Assembly: GCA_019635875.1 (NCBI GenBank)
Contig: JAHBYP010000002.1
Coordinates: 558,001 to 622,000, forward strand
From: Alphaproteobacteria bacterium
GTDB lineage: Bacteria > Pseudomonadota > Alphaproteobacteria > Reyranellales > Reyranellaceae
DNA: 64,000 bases
Direction of reading: 5' to 3'
Shown piece by piece: positions 28,240 through 29,740 of this stretch; the first letter of the stretch is position 1; each line of letters opens with the position of its first letter. Both the position numbers and the translations under genes were made by a program. Under the pieces are notes generated by a model. That model saw only the letters and a program-made list of their open reading frames with translations. It was not told the origin of the DNA and ran no database searches.

Positions 28240-29526
28240 CTACTTCTCGCCGAAGGCGCCCTTCAGTTCCTTCACCAGGTCGGTGCGCTCCCACGAGAAG
28301 CCGCCGTCCTTCTCCGGCTTGCGGCCGAAATGGCCGTAGGCGGCCGTGCGCTGATAGATCGGCTTGTTGAGCTGCAGGCCGCGGCGGATGTTGGTCGGGC
28401 GCAGCGGGAAGATGTCGGCGAGGATCTTCTCGAGCCGGCGTTCGTCGACCTTGCCGGTACCCTGGGTGTCGACATAGAGCGACATCGGATCGGCGACGCC
28501 GATGGCGTAGGCGACCTGGATCAGGCAGCGATCGGCCAGCCCGGCGGCGACCACGTTCTTGGCGAGGTAGCGTGCGGCGTAGGCGGCCGAGCGGTCGACC
28601 TTGGTCGGATCCTTGCCCGAGAAGGCACCGCCGCCGTGCGGCGCATAGCCACCGTAGGTGTCGACGATGATCTTGCGACCGGTCAGGCCGCAATCGCCGT
28701 CGGGGCCGCCGACGACGAAGTTGCCGGTCGGGTTGACGAAGAAATCGGCGTCCTTCCTGGGCATCCAGCCATCGGGCAGCGACTTGGTCACGTGCGCCCG
28801 GATCATCTCCTTGATCATGCCCGAGTTGTACTTCCTGCCCTTGGCCGTCGCCTCGCGATGCTGCGTCGAGACCACGACCTTCACCGCGCCCACCGCCTTG
28901 CCGCCGGCGTAGCGCACGGTGACCTGGCTCTTGGCGTCGGGCTGCAGGTCGGGCAACTCGCCCGAGCGGCGCGCCTCGCTCAGCACCTGCAGGATCTTGT
29001 GCGAGAAGTAGATCGGCGCCGGCATGAACGAGCCCTTCTCGTAGGCCTCGCTGTCGCGGCAGGCGAAGCCGAACATCAGGCCCTGGTCACCCGCGCCTTC
29101 CTGCTCGCCGAGATTGCCGCCCTTCTTCTTGGCGTCGACGCCCATGGCGATGTCGGGCGACTGGCCGTGCAGCAACACCTCGACATCGGCGCCGTGGAAG
29201 GAGAAGCCGTCCTGGTCGTAGCCGATGTCGCGCACCACGCCGCGGGCGATCTCGCTCAGCGCCTCGCGGTTGACCACGGTGTGGCCGCCGTACTTGCGCA
29301 TGAACGGCGCCTGCGCGCGGCCCTCGCCGGCAATGACGATCTTGTTGGTGGTGGCGAGCGTCTCGCAGCCCAGGCGGGTATTGGCGTGGCTGTCGTCGGC
29401 GATGCCGAGCTTCACGTCGTTGGCGATGAAGGCATCGAGGATGGCGTCGGAGATCTGGTCGCAGACCTTGTCGGGATGTCCCTCGGAGACGGATTCGCTG
29501 GTGAAAATGTAGTCCTGAAGCGCCAC
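28240..29526 (-). CDS. metK: S-adenosylmethionine synthetase
   Basis: Makes SAM from methionine and ATP. The 428-aa product begins at GTG ([20 protein letters not shown]) with AGGAG upstream and includes [12 protein letters not shown], the Gly-rich [20 protein letters not shown] and the usual AYGHFGR near the C-terminus. It is longer than E. coli MetK (384), as in several alphaproteobacteria, with extra residues between the conserved blocks. The upstream 188-nt leader holds a SAM-II-like aptamer, suggesting feedback control by its product. Confidence 0.97.
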
Positions 29527-29593
29527 GGCAGGGCTCTCCTTGCTTCTTCGTTCTGGACCGGGATCGAGCCGGACCCGTGGGGGACACGGGGCG

Positions 29594-29685
29594 CGCCGTC
29601 GACCGCTTAGCCATTTTTTTCGTGGTGGCAAGGGGCCCGAAATCCATCCACGGCCGGCCGGCCCTTCCGACAGGCGGTCGACGGG
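29594..29685 (-). promoter_or_regulatory. Candidate SAM-II (SAM-alpha) riboswitch before metK
   Basis: Read on the minus strand, P1 is CGTGG (29652-29648) with CCACG (29625-29621). The loop starts with a GGATTT block and ends in TTGC, and P1 is followed by an A-rich strand, AAATGGCTAAGCGG, ending at 29603. These match the known SAM-II consensus elements (GAUUU in loop 1, UUGC before the P1 3' arm, AAAUG-GCUAA after it). An 11-bp perfect stem (29674-29684 with 29596-29606) encloses the element and shares bases with its 3' strand. The pseudoknot pairing could not be proven by eye. It is 77 nt from the metK start. Confidence 0.62.
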
Positions 29686-29708
29686 CCATAGAAAGACGGA
29701 GAGAGGGC

Positions 29709-29740
29709 CGGAAATCAAGCGCTTCCGGGCTGATTTCGGG
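29709..29740 (-). terminator. Stem-loop overlapping the DMT gene stop codon
   Basis: GAAATCA and TGATTTC arms flank a 13-nt loop; on the minus strand the stem is followed by pyrimidine-rich CCCTCTCTCCGTCTTTCT. It may terminate the gpsA-led transcript before the metK leader. Confidence 0.35.

Follow-up and report, generated by a model that had tools for sequence, protein, structure and literature searches.

The window, i.e., the whole stretch of 64,000 nucleotides that was analysed, carries metK (SAM synthetase) on its minus strand, and the gene is preceded on that strand by a leader of riboswitch type at 29594-29685 (Table 1). The initial annotation described in this leader a P1 helix, a GGATTT and a TTGC block in the loop, and AAAUGGCUAA following P1, all bracketed by a perfect 11-bp stem that includes the GCGG just after GCTAA. 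Each of these blocks was recovered on the minus strand where it had been placed (GGAUUU at 29645-29640), and the bracketing stem is exact in the sequence. Further upstream lies a promoter-like element, and the transcript would be expected to start near 29682, within the 5' strand of the enclosing stem, so that transcription may miss the outermost 2-3 bp of this stem.

Table 1. Features of the metK leader region in the window, listed in the direction of transcription of metK (positions count from the first letter of the window; SD, Shine-Dalgarno).
Feature	Position	Strand	Basis or remark
Promoter-like TTGATT-N18-TTTCTA	29689..29718	-	putative; similar in other Reyranellaceae genera
Enclosing stem, 5' strand CCGUCGACCGC	29674..29684	-	unchanged in all three genomes sampled for the genus
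Weak local hairpin GUCGG-AAGGG-CCGGC, 5' of P1	29657..29671	-	position of the abutting hairpin of the class; p=0.45 in the window, pronounced in other genera
P1, 5' strand CGUGG	29648..29652	-	sequence; covariation in 109 leaders
Spacer AUG (3 nt), P1 to GAUUU	29645..29647	-	1 nt in canonical SAM-II
GAUUU, triplex third strand (equivalents of SAM-II G8-U12)	29640..29644	-	comparison, model R3
Remainder of loop L1, CGGGCCCC	29632..29639	-	GGCC able to form P2b with GGUC 29604-29601
P2, 5' strand UUGC-C (UUGC = 29631-29628)	29627..29631	-	covariation
P1, 3' strand CCACG	29621..29625	-	pairs with CGUGG; covariation
AAAUGGCUAA, after P1	29616-29607	-	sequence
P2, 3' strand G-GCUAA (G41 to A46)	29607..29612	-	pair 24-41 as CG, GC, AU, UA
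Position 47, G	29606	-	always G in metK leaders (109/109) and A in canonical elements (58/58 parsable)
GCGGUC, P2b 3' strand and inner half of enclosing stem	29601..29606	-	pairing
Enclosing stem, 3' strand GCGGUCGACGG	29596..29606	-	exact pairing; begins directly 3' of GCUAA
Platform hairpin CCCGUG/CACGGG	29574..29590	-	without U-run 3' of the hairpin
Candidate anti-SD GGCUC-GA-UCC	29561..29570	-	complementary to GGAGAGCC
UCGAUC	29562..29567	-	can pair with GGUCGA 29604-29599 in the aptamer 3' strand
GGUCC element	29555..29559	-	common to most class leaders
SD region AAGGAGAGCC	29532..29541	-	sequence
metK (SAM synthetase)	28240..29526	-	GTG start at 29526

The aptamer in the window is real. 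A covariance model, R3, was built from metK leaders of other orders and without any Reyranellales sequence in order to avoid circularity. It gave a single match in the 64 kb of the window, the metK leader, at 56.3 bits (E=3.3e-11), so that the leader is assigned to the metK class described below, which has G at position 47, by a model holding no sequence from its own order. In the 6.2-Mb genome the window leader was likewise the best match (E=3.2e-9), followed by a canonical SAM_alpha element before metZ (28.8 bits). The SAM_alpha model of Rfam (RF00521), by which the initial annotation proposed that the aptamer could be recognized, gave only 12.9 bits at a gathering threshold of 36, and the SAM-II long loops model (RF01726) 23.3 bits at a threshold of 44. 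The SAM/SAH family (RF01727) gave no match in the leader up to E=10, and a scan of the whole window at gathering thresholds returned tRNA only and no riboswitch family. Thresholds alone would thus have dismissed the aptamer. This extends to the class, which is largely overlooked by Rfam: among 20 class loci scanned only one passed the RF00521 threshold (40 bits), a metK leader from family f35 (L083, 1494-1570) that still has G47 and is bracketed by an 11-bp flank helix, and RF01726 gave 23-40 bits (best member L147, 40.0), below 44 in every locus scanned, although the metK leader was its genome-wide best match, at about 25-32 bits, in most Reyranellaceae genomes collected. Minimum-free-energy folding of the window leader (z=-0.75) is uninformative for a pseudoknot.

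Reyranellaceae leaders were collected via the metK protein, and the core was present in 46/46 parsable ones as well as in the metK leader of a genome from another family of the same order. A model made from 14 leaders (R1) detected further metK leaders in other families, and a broader model (R2) detected the class in all 29 genomes of family f157, in 3/3 of f35, in two of f149 and in one of f107. In the order to which genome G118 belongs, R2 matched 97 of 150 genomes; matches were counted at E<=1e-4, where weak ones may represent canonical SAM_alpha, so that the class can account for at most this number. Nearly all strong matches with enough sequence had metK 39-194 nt downstream, one of them (L210) being followed by metZ instead; viral contigs were searched for the class core and none was found. 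The same variant is found ahead of metK in many alphaproteobacterial families (dozens) and in further orders. The blocks on which the first description rested are indeed kept in orthologous metK leaders, i.e., GAUUU in 101, UUGC in 108 and GCUAA in 100 of 109. Some leaders depart from this core. Those of a Vineibacter-type genus (g4; L052-L055) have GAGUU for GAUUU and a 1-nt spacer, the U10 to G change being a further alteration of the pocket seen in one genus. In the metK leader of another genome of the window's genus (L023, G003) GCUCA replaces GCUAA, and that aptamer may be weakened or decayed. Five leaders from several families in the order of G118 (L172, L185, L186, L187, and L188) read GGCUCUAAG, in which CUAA lacks the G before it.

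Pairing and covariation scores for P1 and the interleaved P2 were above every shuffle and slid control (alignment A2). Over the 109 leaders P1 pairs occur as CG, UA, or AU, pair 24-41 as CG, GC, AU, or UA, and pair 17-49 as CG, UG, or GC; the latter two remained above shuffles when only 40 distinct rows were used. C.C is common at 24-41 in some families, and this pair is therefore not universal. Covariation in P1, 24-41, and 17-49 demonstrates that the H-type pseudoknot of SAM-II is formed by P1 and P2, and the covariation anticipated for related metK leaders is found in both helices. In addition, a hairpin lies 5' of P1 and abuts it, with a mean score of 15.2 vs 8.7 in shuffled flanks over the 109 leaders (p<0.05 in 47/109); its helix covaries within Reyranella-type genomes, and 20 canonical leaders had no excess of such a hairpin. 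A short L1, a helix through the ligand pocket, the hairpin abutting P1, and G47 are the hallmarks of the class. It is very improbable that the region is ordinary conserved promoter or leader DNA of metK without RNA function. The promoter-like site is conserved as well, as expected from such DNA, but the two interleaved helices show compensatory changes across 109 leaders, which contradicts this explanation, and the covarying abutting hairpin and the match to SAM-II models also speak against it. The proposal of a SAM-II-like aptamer in the metK leader is consequently upheld as regards the core, which occurs in orthologues, and the pseudoknot, which covaries, but the element is not a plain SAM-II as it is subthreshold in Rfam and has no A47.

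The base that follows GCUAA, position 47, is more telling than the enclosing stem. It is G in every one of the 109 metK leaders, and of 21 comparison elements 20 have A. A further 60 RF00521 matches from many families had A47 in 58/58 parsable cases, and 0/60 were followed by metK. A47 also stands in the consensus lines of both Rfam families (RF00521 and RF01726). The sole exception seen among the comparison elements (L210, 201-259) precedes a metZ-like gene and is a canonical-looking SAM_alpha with a strong terminator-like hairpin, yet it has G47. Although G47 sequences served to train the models, a single position is worth only about 2 bits, and the Reyranellaceae leaders found by the metK protein alone all have G47. 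Guanine carries a 6-oxo group, as does inosine. In SAM-II, A47 contacts the amino and carboxylate groups of SAM (PMC3764141); in SAM-V the equivalent A50 makes the same contacts and inosine at this position severely reduces SAM binding (PMC6061858). The other pocket residues of SAM-II, U10-U12, U20, U21, G22, C23, G42, C43, U44, A45, and A46 (PMC3764141), are kept in the window, and the adenine contact U44 and the sulfonium contacts U11 and U21 are kept in the class. In metK leaders C19-G47 can pair, as can G18-U48 and C17-G49, and P2 is extendable via 18-48, 17-49, and 16-50, all of which are open in canonical SAM-II (RF00521).

As A47 is replaced by G with the other contacts kept, the amino-acid end of the ligand would be read differently or less well, and ligand recognition in the class is probably different from, or weaker than, that of known SAM-II. 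Tight SAM binding is not to be assumed, as G47 would remove the known amino-acid anchor. It is conceivable, with chances we put slightly below even, that a SAM-II fold in which A47 has given way to a C19-pairable G47 represents a new recognition mode, either that of a SAM sensor tuned to higher SAM concentrations for metK, the last step, or that of a sensor of another adenosyl-sulfur compound. The genome of the window also contains a canonical SAM_alpha element of 54 bits with A47 directly before a metZ-type gene (L070, 931-1007; G000:C1:810931-811006), and two SAM-II-type sensors thus coexist in it. It is tempting to speculate, though only tentatively, that the G47 class binds SAM at a deliberately lower affinity than the A47 element before metZ, so that biosynthesis genes would be turned off first and metK last. 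This would be a refinement of the OFF switch proposed below, with the mechanism otherwise the same. The inosine effect at A50 of SAM-V, the presence of both types in one genome, and the retention of U11, U21, and U44 are in agreement with a lowered affinity; on the other hand, a C19-G47 pair may make a different but equally tight pocket. A change of ligand to another adenosyl-sulfur compound (e.g., SAH, decarboxylated SAM, or methylthioadenosine), bound through the kept adenine and sulfur sites, is unlikely. A constant substitution where the amino-acid end is recognised would suit such a change, and SAM-I variants before metK and polyamine genes have switched to spermidine (PMC10853860). Against it, the metK context suits product feedback by SAM, and the U-A.U triples that read the sulfonium retain their residues, an argument against the neutral compounds SAH and MTA.

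The enclosing stem exceeded shuffled flanks in the window (p=0.015) and in two sister genomes (0.005). Its length in the window's genus, of which three genomes were sampled, is 12, 11, and 11 bp, and its 5' strand is invariant in these while the linker varies; covariation was absent, there being no variation in the stem among the three. As a feature of the class the stem was rejected, since p<0.05 was reached in only 8% of the 109 leaders, and the mean flank-helix score over leaders was in slight excess (17.1 vs 16.0+-0.2 in mismatched leaders). Long flank helices unrelated to the window stem were seen in L078 and L083. Elsewhere than in the window's genus a local hairpin takes the place of the stem, which is a genus-level accessory (three genomes sampled). 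The initial annotation proposed that the stem may switch against the pseudoknot and form an expression platform. The inner half of the stem is the P2b strand and the full stem and P2b are therefore mutually exclusive, so that competition with P2b is plausible, but the stem does not compete with P1 or P2a, is found in one genus only, and is followed downstream by a conserved platform, an anti-SD element with GGUCC. Some weight must be given to the alternative, which we do not favour, that the stem does not switch and is a static P0 helix bracketing the aptamer, with no role beyond stabilising the leader or the leader's 5' end. When the leader is folded with P1 formed and the P2 strands withheld, the stem keeps its outer half, a hairpin occupies the corresponding site in other genera, and the predicted transcript start lies at the stem 5' strand, all of which fit a static helix; the sharing of GCGGUC with P2b does not.

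In the platform, the leaders carry a GCCCNNGGUCC-like element 5' of the start codon and the Shine-Dalgarno region is complementary to this element, e.g., CUCCGGU/ACCGGAG and CCCCG/CGGGG in class members. The mean score of this helix was 15.6 vs 14.7+-0.24 in mismatched and 14.0+-0.3 in shuffled leaders. In GC-rich leaders, Shine-Dalgarno hairpins often arise by chance. When the window leader was folded, the Shine-Dalgarno GG was paired in every computed state, and the two states were not separated. The strand after GCUAA can also pair with this same platform element, as GUGGGC/GCCC in most leaders, GGUCGA/UCGAUC in the window, GGUCGG/CCGAUC in L033, and GGACGA/UCGUCC in L201. In an anchored test, pair 53-X of this alternative helix was paired in 71% of cases vs 47% in shuffled ones (p=2e-4); its covariation was insignificant once duplicate rows were removed, and a general test of the aptamer 3' strand was level (13.46 vs 13.36+-0.12 in mismatched leaders). 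A transcription terminator was rejected for the window since the platform hairpin has no U-run behind it, in keeping with control of translation and not of termination. L1 (CCCUUGC) is also complementary to the Shine-Dalgarno sequence of the window (GCAAGGAG), but this was set aside because it is not kept in other genera.

The platform model is one reasoned from these pairings. We consider it probable that the leader acts as a SAM-dependent translational OFF switch of metK, based on a SAM-II superfamily variant specific to metK. SAM, which MetK makes, would bind in the major-groove triplex and stabilise P2 via P2b, which would capture the strand 3' of GCUAA (GCGGUC in the window, GUGGGC in most leaders). 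The captured strand could then not pair with the downstream element (UCGAUC in the window, NGCCC in most), and this element, now free, would pair with the Shine-Dalgarno region and turn metK translation off. In the window's genus the extra 5' strand CCGUCGACCGC would be a third partner of the post-GCUAA strand, would replace the P1-abutting hairpin of other genera, and would most likely hold the ligand-free state against the pseudoknot, thereby raising the SAM level needed.

Judged by its sequence, the window leader is a new variant within the SAM-II superfamily, specific to metK, and belongs to neither RF00521 nor RF01726. It shares with SAM_alpha/SAM-II (RF00521; structure 2QWY) the H-type pseudoknot, P1, the GAUUU third strand, the UUGC/GCUAA core, an A-rich L3, and the association with methionine-cycle genes of alphaproteobacteria. 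The metK class differs from it, besides position 47, in the loop between GAUUU and UUGC, which is mostly 7 nt in the class and 12 in SAM-II, in the spacer after P1 (3 nt in 88/109 metK leaders vs 1 nt in 21/21 canonical elements), and in the P1-abutting hairpin, the placement before metK, and a translational-looking platform. The closest Rfam model is SAM-II long loops (RF01726; Bacteroidetes, marine; PMC2864571), which has the same P1-A-NN-GAUUU spacing and UUGC.ACC junction, but has A47 in its consensus and differs in taxa and tail. SAM-V (PMC6061858) has in common with the class the SAM-binding core and, as proposed here for metK, a translational OFF switch by Shine-Dalgarno occlusion; however, A50 is kept in SAM-V, SAM-V was unmatched in the Rfam scan, and the Shine-Dalgarno sequence lies inside the pseudoknot helix in SAM-V and about 65 nt downstream in the metK leader. 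SAM/SAH (RF01727) shares the placement before metK in alphaproteobacteria (Rhodobacterales). A survey of methionine regulation in proteobacteria lists SAM_alpha before metY, metA, metX, metC, metW, and hom, not metK, and no SAM riboswitch for its nine Rhodospirillales genomes (PMC4239095). No earlier description of the metK class was found in the literature searched, which consisted chiefly of freely accessible main texts.

For Rhodospirillales and their relatives, the control of SAM synthesis gains a candidate in one variant class that spans metK in many families. The constant change at a residue that grips SAM in known SAM-II offers a clear test of how riboswitch affinity or specificity is tuned, and a single cell has two SAM-II-type sensors, one with A47 before metZ and one with G47 before metK.
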